A DNA stretch of 33,547 nt from an uncultured Bacteroides sp. (GTDB lineage: Bacteria > Bacteroidota > Bacteroidia > Bacteroidales > Bacteroidaceae): NCBI GenBank assembly GCA_947176775.1, contig CAMWRY010000008.1, positions 1 to 33,547 of the forward strand. The letters run 5' to 3'. Shown here piece after piece: positions 9,573 through 18,923 of this stretch. Position numbers and translations under genes: made by a program. Each line of letters opens with the position of its first letter. The stretch's first letter is position 1. The notes under the pieces are model-generated. The model had not been told where the DNA came from. It searched no databases and worked only from the letters and a program-made list of their open reading frames with translations.

Positions 9573-9584
9573 ATTTCTAAGAAA

Positions 9585-9675
9585 ACGTAAGTTCGATATA
9601 AGCGATAGCCCATAGGCCGCATGGTAGCTTCAACAACATGCGGTCTGTGGGCTATCGCTTATGTCGAATTCACGT
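9585..9675. repeat. Long near-palindrome (39-bp arms, 13-nt loop), MITE-like
   Basis: Arms 9585-9623 and 9637-9675 match at 34/39 positions; TAAGAAA abuts both outer ends (7 bp; 9 bp if TAAGAAAAC is counted). Confidence 0.9.
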
Positions 9676-10349: not shown

Positions 10350-10392
10350 ATCCTCAAACCTCCTCCCCCGTAGGGAGGGGAGGTTTGAGGAT
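10350..10392. repeat. Intergenic hairpin with 14-bp perfect arms
   Basis: ATCCTCAAACCTCC (10350-10363) / GGAGGTTTGAGGAT (10379-10392). Confidence 0.9.
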
Positions 10393-10491: not shown

Positions 10492-13400
10492 CTACTTCAT
10501 TCTTTCTGCATAGATACGATACAACTCTTCTATCTTCGGCTCGTAGATTTCGGTCAGGCTGGAGTTGTACTTCTTCATGCTTTGCACTTCGGCATTGAGC
10601 ACACGCCAGTGGTATTCAAACTCGTTGGCGGAAATCAGGAAGCGGTTATCGTCCAGGCTCAGGTACCAAGTCATATACTCTACGGCCTTGTCGGCAAGGG
10701 CTTTCATGATTTCGTCCGCCTTGGCGGTTTCGTCCAGCTGATAGTAGGCTTCGGCCATTTGTGCGGAACCGTTCTGCCAGTCGTAGGGCACGTTGTAGGC
10801 CGGAATCATCTTTTCGGCATAGTCCAGGGCGGCTTTGGCCTTCTCCTTCTTGCCTTCGCGTATCAGCTGCTGCACGAGCTGCGAGAAGATGCGACGGTGG
10901 GAGTGGCACATGCGCATGGCATTCTCGTCGATGTAGATGCCCGGCTTGTCGATGCCGCCGTAGCGGAACTTGTTCATCAGGTTGTCATACATCTTCTCGG
11001 AGTCTATCGAGACGCCTGTCTTTTCGTTGTCGAACGGGGTGAAGCGGTAGGCAAGACCTTCTTGGATGAAGTGATTGTCCATGCCCAGCTGATTGTCGCT
11101 TCCTACGCTGACGGCGATGTAGATGGGACGTTCCCAGTTGGCTTCGCTCAGCATTTCGAGCATCATCAGTTCGCTCTTGTAGAGGGCGCGTTTGGGGATG
11201 TAGTCACCTTTGTAGGTCTTGGTGCGCAGCTTGATGCTCATGTAGTCGGGGATGGAGTCGCCCGGTATCATCATGCCGCTGCGGCGCACGGCTTCCTTGT
11301 CTATCTTGATGACGATGCTGTCCGTAGGAATCACCTTCAGTTCTTCGTCTTTCGGAGCACGTACCCAGTGCTTCAGGATGTTCTTCAGCTCGTAGGGGTT
11401 GTCGCCGAACTCCTTCTTCACGTTCACCAGCGCTTCGGGGTTGCCATTCAGGGCCTGTTTTTCGGCTTCGGCATAGAGTTGGTCGATGCTCTTCTTGTAC
11501 TCCGGCTGGATGGGGATGTATTCGTTGGTACCCTCTACGTACTCCATGCGGTCCCAAGTGATGGGTAGCGAGGGAGAGTCGTAGGCAGGACGCTTCATCT
11601 GGTCGATATACCAGTCGGTCTGCAAGTAAGAGAGGTTGCAGGTACGGGCATCGGTGCGGAAGCCTTCGGTCTCCTGGTTGTACCAGAGGGGGAAGGTATC
11701 GTTGTCGCCGTTGGTGTAGATGATGGGGTTTCCGCTCTCTTGCAGGGACATCAGGTAGTTCTGTCCGAAGTCGCGTGCCAGGTAGCGACCGCTGCGGTCG
11801 TGGTCGTCCCACGTCTGGCTGGCCATCTGGATGGGAACCAAGAGGCAGAGGAGGGAAACGATGAGGGCAGATACAAGTTGACGAGTTGACGAGGCTACAA
11901 GGAACTTATCCTCGTTTCCTTCTCCCCTTGTAGCCTTGTTAATTTGTCCCCTTGTCCCCTTGTCAACTCTCTCCACCAGTCCTGCCACACCCATGCCAAT
12001 CCAGATGGCGAAGGCGTAGAACGAACCGGCGTAGGCATAGTCGCGTTCGCGCGGCTGGCTCGGGGTCTGGTTCAGGTAGAGCACGATGGCGATACCGGTC
12101 ATAAAGAAGAGGAAGAACACCACCCAGAACTGCTGGATGCCCTTCTGTCCGCGGTAGGCTTGCCACAGCAGGCCGATGATACCCAGCAGCAGGGGCAGGC
12201 AGTAGAAGACGTTGTGTCCCTTGTTGTCGCGTAGTTCCTGGGGCAGCAGTGTCTGGTCGCCCACCAAGAGGTTGTCGATGAACGAGATGCCGGTAATCCA
12301 GTTGCCGTGCTCTATCTCGCCGCTACCTTGGATGTCGTTCTGCCGTCCGGCAAAGTTCCACATGAAGTAGCGCCAGTACATCCAGTTGAGCTGGTAGGAG
12401 AAGAAGAACTTGATGTTCTCCCACTGCGTGGGCATGTTCACCATTACCATTTGCCCACACTTGTCGTAGGGCACGTCATAGCCCGTGATGTCCTGCCAAG
12501 CTTGGTATTGCGGTGTGTGCGCACTGCTGTACATGCGTGGGAAGAGCATGTTCTGCGCATATTCGTATTCGATGCGTCCGGGGATTTCGATGTACGAATC
12601 CTTCTCGTCGGGCGTGGCTTTCTCCTTGCGGATGAACTTGGTGCCGTTGTACTTGATGCGCGGTTCGCAGTAGCCGGTTTGCGTATTCACGTCGAGCGCC
12701 ACTTGCGAGGTGAAGGCAGGACCGTAGAAGAGCGGCCGTGTGCCATATTGCTCGCGTCCCAGGTATTCGCCCAGCGTGAAGATGTCCTCAGGCGAGTTCT
12801 GGTCCATCGGTGTGTTGGCGGTGGAGCGGATGACGATGAGCGCATACGAGGAGTAGCCGATGACAATCATCGTGGTGCAGAGCAGCGCCGTGTTCAAGGT
12901 GTGTGCCGATACGCGGAGCGACTCCTTCAGCAGCGCCTGTGTCTGCGGACGGAGGTAGAACCACAGCAGAGCGATGATGATGATGCCTATAACCACCGAG
13001 CTGGTGCCGTGTCCGTAGAACGGAATGCCCAGCAGGGCGATGGTGAGTATGAAGGAGAGCGTCATGCACGTCTTGTTGCGCTCGGTATAGCTTTCGTAGA
13101 TACCCCAAATGAGGCAGGCTGCCAGCAGGATGATGTAGACGATGACACCTGTGTTGAAGGACATGCCCAGCGTGTTGACAAAAAGCAGCTCGAACCAGCC
13201 GCCCACTTTCACGATGCCCGGCACAATGCCATAGAGCACAGCCGCTACCAGTATGCCCGAAGCCACCAGTGCCAGCAGCGAACCACGGGCGTTGGCATTG
13301 GGCACCTTCTTGTAGTAATACACCAGTACGATGGCAGGCAGACAGAGCAGGTTCAGCAAGTGAACGCCGATGCTGAGTCCTGTCAGGTAGGCAATGAGAA

Positions 13401-13989: not shown

Positions 13990-14083
13990 GACAGACACTT
14001 GTGTCTGTCTCGACAGAGGCCAGTGTCTGTCGTCTCAAAGACCAGTGTTTGTCACGACAGACACCAGTGTTTGTCAACTCAAA
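13990..14083. repeat. Four 22-bp-period dyad-symmetric units plus a partial fifth
   Basis: Units begin at 13990, 14012, 14034 and 14056: GACAGACAC-TT-GTGTCTGTC, GACAGAGGC-CA-GTGTCTGTC, CTCAAAGAC-CA-GTGTTTGTC, GACAGACAC-CA-GTGTTTGTC; CTCAAA restarts at 14078. Confidence 0.95.
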
Positions 14084-16847: not shown

Positions 16848-18923
16848 ATGCAGACTATGATAACAAACCAGTTACTCCATCCGGAAAGTATTGTCGTAGT
16901 GGGCGCCTCCAACAACGTCCACAAGCCCGGAGGGGCTATTCTCCGAAACCTGATAAACGGCGGATATGCCGGCGAGCTTCGTGCCGTCAATCCCAAAGAA
17001 CCCGAAGTGCAGGGTGTCACCGCCTTTGCCGATGTCCGCGACCTTCCGTCTACCGACCTCGCCATCCTTGCCATTCCTGCCGGCCTCTGCCCCGATGTTG
17101 TGGAAGTGCTTGCCGCCGAGAAACAGGTGAAGGCGTTCATCATTCTCTCTGCCGGCTTTGGCGAAGAGACCCGTGAGGGTGCCGCCCTGGAGGAGCGCAT
17201 CTTGCAGACGGTGAACCGCTACGGCGCTTCCCTGATAGGTCCCAACTGCATCGGCTTCATGAATGCCTGGCACCACAGCGTCTTCAGCCAACCCATCCCC
17301 CAGCTGCATCCGCAGGGCGTGGACCTGATTTCCAGTTCGGGTGCCACGGCAGTCTTCATTCTGGAGAGCGCCGTGACCAAGGGCTTGCAGTTCAATTCCG
17401 TCTGGTCTGTGGGCAACGCCAAGCAGATAGGTGTGGAGGACGTGTTGCAATACATGGACGAGCACTATCAGCCCGAGACCGACTCCAGAATAAAACTCCT
17501 CTACATCGAAAGCATTGCCGACCCCGACCGGTTGCTTTTTCATGCCTCGTCGCTCATCAAGAAGGGGTGTCGCATTGCCGCCATCAAGGCCGGAAGCAGT
17601 GAGAGCGGAAGCCGGGCCGCCAGTTCGCATACGGGAGCCATCGCCAGCAGTGATTCGGCTGTGGAGGCACTCTTCCGCAAGGCAGGCATCGTGCGCTGTT
17701 ATTCGCGCGAGGAGCTGACCACCGTGGGGTGCATCTTCACCCTGCCCGAACTGAAAGGAAAGAACTTCGCTATCATCACCCATGCCGGAGGCCCGGGCGT
17801 GATGCTGACCGATGCCCTGAGCAAGGGTGGACTGAACGTCCCCAAGCTGGAAGGAGAGGCTGCCGAGGAGCTTAAGAGTCGCCTTTTCCCCGGTGCCGCC
17901 GTGGGTAATCCTATCGACATACTGGCCACGGGCACTCCGGAGCACCTGCGCCTCTGCCTGGAATACTGTGAGGAGAAGTTCGACGGGATAGATGCCGTGA
18001 TGGCCATCTTCGGCACTCCGGGACTGGTGACCATGTTCGAGATGTACGACGTGCTGCACGAGAAGATGCAGACCTGCCGTAAACCGATATTCCCCATCCT
18101 CCCCTCCATCAATACGGCCGGTGCCGAGGTATCCGCCTTCCTCGCCAAGGGGCATGTGAACTTTGCCGACGAGGTGACTTTGGGTACGGCCCTCTCGCGC
18201 ATTGTGAATGCTCCGCGCCCTGCCAACAACGAGATAGAGCTTTTTGGGGTCGACGTGCCGCGCATCCGCCGCATCATCGACTCCATTCCTCAGGATGGCT
18301 ACATCGCTCCCCACTACGTGCAGGCATTGCTCCGCTCGGCAGGCATCCCGGTGGTCGAAGAGTTTGTGTCCGAGAACAAGGAGGAGGTACTTGCCTTTGC
18401 CCGTCGCACCGGTTTTCCCGTAGTGGCCAAGGTGGTGGGGCCTGTGCATAAATCGGATGTGGGCGGTGTGGTGCTGAACATCAAGGGTGAGCAGCACTTG
18501 GCCTTGGAGTTTGACCGCATGATGCAGATTCCCCAGGCACATGCTGTCATGGTGCAGCCTATGCTGAAGGGTACCGAGCTTTTTATCGGTGCCAAGTACG
18601 AAGAGAAGTTTGGCCACGTGGTGCTTTGCGGCTTGGGCGGCATCTTTGTGGAGGTACTGAAGGATGTATCCTCCGGCTTGGCTCCCCTCTCCTATCCGGA
18701 GGCCTACTCTATGATTCGTGCGCTGCGTGCCTACAAGATTATCAAGGGCACGCGCGGACAGCAGGGAGTGAATGAAGACAAGTTTGCCGAGATAGTCGTG
18801 CGCCTCTCTACCCTGCTGCGCTTTGCCACGGAAATCAAGGAGATGGACATCAATCCGCTGCTGGCTACCGAGAAACAGGTGATAGCGGTGGATGCACGCA
18901 TCCGGATAGAGAAAGATAGTTAA
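16848..18923 (+). CDS. Acetate--CoA ligase (ADP-forming) family / acyl-CoA synthetase with ATP-grasp domain
   Basis: ESIVVVGASNNVHKPGGAILRNLINGGY, LIGPNCIGFMN, SSHTGAIASSD, ITHAGGPGVMLTD, GFPVVAKVVGPVHKSDVGGV, EMDINPLL. Internal start chosen; TATATTTG at 16820-16827. Confidence 0.93.
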   Translation: MQTMITNQLLHPESIVVVGASNNVHKPGGAILRNLINGGYAGELRAVNPKEPEVQGVTAFADVRDLPSTDLAILAIPAGLCPDVVEVLAAEKQVKAFIILSAGFGEETREGAALEERILQTVNRYGASLIGPNCIGFMNAWHHSVFSQPIPQLHPQGVDLISSSGATAVFILESAVTKGLQFNSVWSVGNAKQIGVEDVLQYMDEHYQPETDSRIKLLYIESIADPDRLLFHASSLIKKGCRIAAIKAGSSESGSRAASSHTGAIASSDSAVEALFRKAGIVRCYSREELTTVGCIFTLPELKGKNFAIITHAGGPGVMLTDALSKGGLNVPKLEGEAAEELKSRLFPGAAVGNPIDILATGTPEHLRLCLEYCEEKFDGIDAVMAIFGTPGLVTMFEMYDVLHEKMQTCRKPIFPILPSINTAGAEVSAFLAKGHVNFADEVTLGTALSRIVNAPRPANNEIELFGVDVPRIRRIIDSIPQDGYIAPHYVQALLRSAGIPVVEEFVSENKEEVLAFARRTGFPVVAKVVGPVHKSDVGGVVLNIKGEQHLALEFDRMMQIPQAHAVMVQPMLKGTELFIGAKYEEKFGHVVLCGLGGIFVEVLKDVSSGLAPLSYPEAYSMIRALRAYKIIKGTRGQQGVNEDKFAEIVVRLSTLLRFATEIKEMDINPLLATEKQVIAVDARIRIEKDS

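Follow-up and report, generated by a model that had tools for sequence, protein, structure and literature searches.

A 96-bp block inside a membrane-protein gene of an uncultured Bacteroides species is, with a probability of about 0.7, a copy of a dispersed, non-autonomous and mainly intergenic palindromic repeat of 8-bp units (octamers), which is tolerated in a permissive loop of the protein. The gene lies in the window, which is the whole stretch of 33,547 nucleotides that was analysed. Several observations carry this reading: the number of octamer elements in the host genome and their depletion within genes; a DUF2723 loop specific to the lineage; further in-frame copies in genes for an RND pump, UvrA and a methyltransferase; near-identical copies at unlinked loci of a related genome, G015; intergenic copies that often lack an open frame; and the position of the insert at a helix-helix turn. 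Counted against it are the lack of a clean empty site, of a target duplication and of a mobiliser, as well as the tandem expansion of one array.

The Octamer Block and Its Host Gene

The product of the host gene matches PF11028 (E=1.2e-78) and, in a phmmer search, the human TMEM260 structure 9rql (E=7.5e-11). Going by these matches, it is probably an O-mannosyltransferase-like GT-C enzyme acting in sugar transfer; a Foldseek search with the protein model returned weak, non-significant GT-C matches and nothing better. In an AlphaFold model built on a 35-sequence alignment (mean pLDDT 73), residues 656-687 are predicted to lie where the chain turns from one helix (634-667) into the next (674-696), and confidence is lowest at residues 664-676 (pLDDT <50). 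The model agrees with the sequence-only reading, which had placed the insert in a loop of a membrane protein. The effect of the insert on the enzyme is probably near-neutral.

On the minus strand the block reads GTTGACAAGGGGACAAGGGGACAAATTAACAAGGCTACAAGGGGAGAAGGAAACGAGGATAAGTTCCTTGTAGCCTCGTCAACTCGTCAACTTGTA and starts in frame at codon 656. It mixes 8-bp units of the forms TTGACRAG, GGGACRAG, TTAACRAG and GCTACAAG into an overall imperfect palindrome, the unit types being TTGACAAG, GGGACAAG, TTAACAAG and GCTACAAG, followed by the opposite-sense CTCGTCAA. Between the arms at 11873-11902 and 11926-11955, 80% of the 30 positions are complementary. Self-identity at lag 8 is 54/88, while none of 263 other segments of the same gene exceeds 29/88; the inverted-repeat score is 18 (maximum elsewhere in the gene, 9), and ACRAG-type units number nine (maximum elsewhere, three). 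Since periodicity and inverted-repeat score are far above the gene background, the presence of a repeat-rich inverted element within the gene is confirmed. The accompanying claim that it fits the frame exactly, in 32 codons, stands only in part: the frame start holds and the net length is frame-compatible, but the 96-bp limits were picked by eye, so that an exact fit says nothing beyond this compatibility of length.

Table 1. Features of the DUF2723 gene (positions in the window) and octamer elements of the host genome.
Feature	Position	Strand	Remarks
TMEM260-like (formerly DUF2723) membrane protein, host gene, 1146 aa	10492..13932	-	PF11028, phmmer, intact ORF
Palindromic octamer-repeat block, codons 656-687, predicted peptide VDKGTRGQINKATRGEGNEDKFLVASSTRQLV	11872..11967	-	8-bp units; loop absent or different in orthologs
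Left arm, gene sense: GTTGACAAG GGGACAAG GGGACAAA TTAACAAG GCTACAAGG	11926..11967	-	inverted arms; units also in intergenic copies
Spacer between arms, 23 nt, GGAGAAGGAAACGAGGATAAGTT	11903..11925	-	
Right arm, gene sense: CCTTGTAGC CTCGTCAA CTCGTCAA CTTGTA	11872..11902	-	inverted arms
Intergenic octamer elements, host genome			C1, C2, C27, C28, C47, C53, C115, C132, C159
In-gene octamer elements, host genome			C8 DUF2723; C17 AcrB-like RND pump; C117 UvrA; C15 PG_1098-type methyltransferase

The DUF2723 Loop in Orthologs

The DUF2723 protein was matched in all 61 genomes searched and at 80 further named loci. The loop was measured between two conserved motifs, GSFYAF and WDDHDRS. It has 65 residues in the host, 50 in the sister genome G011 and 42-44 in most relatives, a net gain of 15 residues over the sister and of 21 over the typical loop (44). 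Neither the peptide of codons 656-687 nor its octamer repeat was found in any of the compared orthologs, and the remaining orthologs with loops of other length carry other sequences. By this alignment the block is lineage-specific, as had been suspected of residues 656-687, and the loop is not one that the orthologs share. At the nucleotide level, neither a clean 96-bp empty site nor a target duplication was found at DUF2723 among the orthologs; together with a net gain of 15-21 codons, the missing empty site suggests displacement or erosion of residues native to the loop.

The same comparison bears on whether the loop could be native and functional, an old selected peptide that looks like a repeat through low-complexity chance. 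The intact ORF and the loops of other lengths in orthologs would suit such an origin, but it is contradicted by the absence of the peptide from every ortholog and by the match of the block DNA to the dispersed family, and appears scarcely credible.

Two further genomes, G009 (L141) and G033 (L142), have an even longer DUF2723 loop, with an 81-residue stretch compared to 31 residues in most. These loops are charged, alike between both genomes, and without an obvious repeat signature.

A Dispersed Family in the Host Genome and the Genus

The host genome (G000) is metagenome-assembled, 64.5% complete and in 285 contigs; its elements were counted by means of pattern and BLAST searches. Exact matches to the three-unit pattern ACRAGNNNACRAGNNNACRAG number 36, compared with none for its reversed control, and these cluster into 13 elements. 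Besides the DUF2723 copy there are nine intergenic elements, the position that the sequence-only reading had considered usual for such a repeat, and three more in frame in other genes. The description of the block as an intergenic-type repeat in frame inside a gene is supported, as members of the family are mostly intergenic. With 88% of the genome assumed to be coding, four in-gene elements out of 13 represent a strong depletion (P ~2e-6), which suggests that the in-gene copies are survivors.

Across the genus, 33 of the 101 Bacteroides genomes contain the family, the highest count for a single genome being 316 matches. It is palindromic everywhere, with elements mostly of 60-130 bp and arrays of 60-170 bp, and the unit variants TTAACAAG GCTACAAGG, which lie innermost, recur throughout the host genome and across species. 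The element C28 is a near-perfect tandem array of TTGACGAG/TTGACAAG, and its contig starts within the array.

A contig that begins inside an octamer array, in a genome of this fragmentation and completeness, is what might be expected if the DUF2723 block were an assembly artefact, namely a misjoined repeat. However, the ORF of 1146 aa is unbroken, and on either side of the block the orthologous protein continues. Four in-frame cases in this genome, and more in other assemblies, would not be expected from misjoins either, and the chance of an artefact is therefore taken to be very slight.

Phage records held nothing matching the octamer element, and the search of plasmids gave one short chance match only, in Streptomyces. 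Two candidate copies were rejected. A pattern match in a P-type ATPase of G017 (L201) is due to chance and encodes the native VISCPCALV motif, while KGTRGQQGVNEDKF (18745-18790 of the window), in an acyl-CoA synthetase-like ORF, has DNA without the octamer signature and was taken as native protein.

In-Frame Copies in Other Genes

UvrA has 16-21 extra residues at one site in G000, G016 and G018, and this site is empty in 20 other orthologs. The insert DNA is a clear palindrome in G016; in G018 the repeat has decayed and the extra residues are retained. The RND linker and the methyltransferase loop of G000 are also enlarged by octamer DNA in comparison with orthologs. In G121, G015 and G002, OMP_b-brl_3 outer-membrane proteins have octamer copies of differing lengths at a common position, and one copy is carried by a histidine kinase of G066; the comparison with orthologs covered the DUF2723, UvrA, RND and methyltransferase genes.

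Octamer DNA is also found at a gene junction. In G115 (L182:488-2428), a single ORF of 647 aa comprises a GT2 glycosyltransferase joined to an NTP_transf_5 protein by an octamer palindrome. The two are separate adjacent genes in G032 and G016, where the first ends ...KVPQFLR or ...KVPQFFG, at the point where the element begins in G115.

It is also conceivable that the DNA hairpin itself is retained, either to regulate through the mRNA or to act as a signal in the DNA, with the peptide as a by-product. The RNA fold of the block is better than that of most shuffles (z-score -2.8; 2 of 200 fold equally well), and the palindromic nature of the family wherever it occurs points the same way. Against this, the hairpin is missing from nearly all DUF2723 orthologs, the UvrA of G018 keeps its additional residues after decay of the DNA repeat, and an Rfam search found an RNA family at none of four loci with intergenic copies. 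A regulatory hairpin is thus highly improbable.

Reading Frame and Retention

Because 8 and 3 have no common factor, tandem octamers pass through all three phases in every 24 nt. As read from the sequence, GGGACAAG and CTCGTCAA units are stop-free in every phase, and TTGAC/TTAAC units contain a stop (TGA or TAA) in one of the three phases. In the in-gene copies, the TTGAC/TTAAC units occur in safe phases only, while of 12 intergenic copies that were checked, seven lack any open frame. Given that intergenic copies are often closed and in-gene copies open, the open in-gene copies look selected, and their phase pattern would fit selection after arrival.

A dispersed element could have reached the gene as follows. 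A copy would have landed, or been templated, in the loop between two TMEM260-like membrane helices, with a length that preserved the reading frame and with its TTGAC/TTAAC units happening into phases that avoid TGA and TAA. The hydrophilic insert would have been tolerated by the protein, with the loss of native loop residues. Copies that broke the frame or the fold would have been purged, leaving the element only in permissive loops and at gene junctions.

Spread and Ends of the Elements

G015 has octamer copies at unlinked loci that share 94-100% identity across some 120-134 bp and have unrelated flanks, which favours copying. The block had been described as either inserted or expanded; of the two, arrival by copying is favoured, and expansion also occurs, slippage-type local growth being a contributor in at least some arrays, such as C28.

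It might then be asked whether anything moved at all. A chance octamer could have grown in place by replication slippage, with hairpin template switching making the opposite arm. Such a local origin would account for the near-perfect tandem array at C28, for the occupation of one loop by different short-period families in different clades, and for palindrome arms that can be exchanged at one locus. The recurrence of identical unit variants genome-wide and between species is against it, and copying is needed to account for full-length copies that sit at unlinked loci and have identical cores. As an explanation of the DUF2723 block, local origin is unlikely, though it deserves more weight than an artefact would.

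The outer ends of the elements vary. Four intergenic copies of the host genome (C1, C47, C115 and C27) have the ends AAGTTTCGCA..TGCGAAACTT in common, and similar ends occur without octamer arms in G000:C13 and in G011. The G015 copies have common ends of their own, TAAATGATAATTTAG..AATTCCTATTTA, and the DUF2723 copy has neither type. At one orthologous intergenic locus, an octamer palindrome in G015 is replaced by a different palindromic mosaic in G032 with identical ends; at this locus pair no clean empty site or target duplication was found, and the palindrome has been exchanged instead. A search of 41 genomes revealed no transposon bearing these outer ends. PF01797 (Y1/RAYT) had no match in the element-rich genomes G107, G115, G069, G088 and G016, some of these assemblies being incomplete. 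A requirement for RAYT/Y1 mobilisation is unsupported, given that Y1/RAYT is absent from most element-rich genomes.

Different Repeats in the Same Loops

Octamers are not the only repeats in these loops. A 7-bp family, GGTCAAY, is dispersed in the clade of G006, G008, G013 and G028 (31, 4, 150 and 39 matches, respectively), with no matches in G000, in G022 or in the control. The DUF2723 loops of G006, G008 and G013 contain period-7 DNA of this kind, with a lag-7 identity of 0.54-0.56 compared to a background mean of 0.26 (sd 0.07) that includes the loops themselves. The RND linker of G006 contains a match to the same family (C13:22229-22251), and the DUF2723 loop of L085, an ortholog from the Prevotellaceae, contains a CTCCCCTCC..GGGAGGGG palindrome. 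The presence of unrelated repeats in equivalent loops suggests that these loops are permissive to whichever repeat abounds in the lineage. Judged by sequence, they look like recurring landing spots that turn junk-like DNA into predicted protein.

A broader proposal can be made tentatively, and may well prove wrong. Bacteroides genomes would carry several unrelated short-period palindromic families (8-mer, 7-mer and others), which would arrive in the same permissive loops and gene junctions in repeated, independent events and supply in-frame loops and enzyme-fusing linkers. The mobilising mechanism would be one not yet described, in which arms are swapped between palindromes whose ends stay constant. 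Entry into the same loop in two clades, the palindrome swap at one locus and the GT2-NTP_transf_5 fusion point in this direction.

Comparison with Known Palindromic Elements

Rickettsia palindromic elements (RPE) and Wolbachia palindromic repeats, of ~100-150 bp, are found between genes and in frame in unrelated genes, whose products tolerate them (PMC10969869, PMC2229807); the octamer elements of the host genome are distributed likewise. A sequence relation is not expected. Whereas RPE encode a conserved peptide in each copy, octamer peptides vary with phase and unit mix; and in contrast to RPE, which are reported from Rickettsia, the octamer arms are mosaics of 8-bp units in a free-living gut genus. 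The best reading of this comparison is that the octamer element may work like RPE, yet is not counted in the RPE family.

GTAG- and CGTC-tagged REPs are also mostly intergenic, with some in frame in "REP-decorated" genes that include uvrA, and they sometimes occupy an identical site in related species (PMC3733652). The octamer family resembles them in its mostly intergenic distribution, its in-frame copies and the hit in uvrA. REPs, however, are RAYT-linked stem-loops that measure 20-40 bp, have stems of 6-13 bp and end in a GTAG or CGTC tag (PMC3733652), while octamer elements are arrays of 60-170 bp with octamer arms and no tagged short stem-loop, and RAYT (Y1_Tnp) is absent from most of their carriers. 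The octamer element is not counted among the REPs either.

Within the Bacteroidales, the nearest element in design is the BrickBuilt MITE of Porphyromonas gingivalis, which is likewise non-autonomous and has short tandem units between inverted ends (PMC4596501). Its unit is 23 nt long, between a leader and a tail with IS5-like ends (PMC4596501), whereas the octamer units are 8 bp and themselves form the palindrome arms; in-frame use within proteins does not feature in the described material (PMC4596501). As in MITEs generally, octamer elements are short, multicopy and without a transposase, and some copies in G000 and G015 have terminal inverted repeats.

The main reports of in-frame palindromic inserts concern Rickettsia, Wolbachia and bacteria rich in REPs. 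The literature searched contains no report of them in Bacteroides, which is weak evidence given that it covered few subscription papers. In Bacteroides, a free-living gut genus that is open to genetic work and of which many species have been sequenced, the rate of repeat-to-protein conversion, the loops that accept repeats and any change of function would be measurable. Different repeat families entering one loop in separate clades amount to a natural replicate experiment.

Other Repeats in the Window

The window contains other repeats. Directly upstream of the DUF2723 gene start, at 13990-14075, a palindromic unit of 22 bp (GACAGACACCAGTGTCTGTCTC) forms a tandem array with 3.9 copies. An 11-bp tandem array of ATACGGAGCAG-like units lies at 1400-1481, and no ORF >80 aa spans it. 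Between a polysaccharide deacetylase-like ORF and the DUF2723 gene there is a CCTCCTCCCCCGTAGGGAGGGGAGG hairpin (10350-10392), which resembles the in-frame palindrome in the DUF2723 loop of L085. A long, near-perfect hairpin at 9577-9672 lies between convergent genes and is terminator-like.
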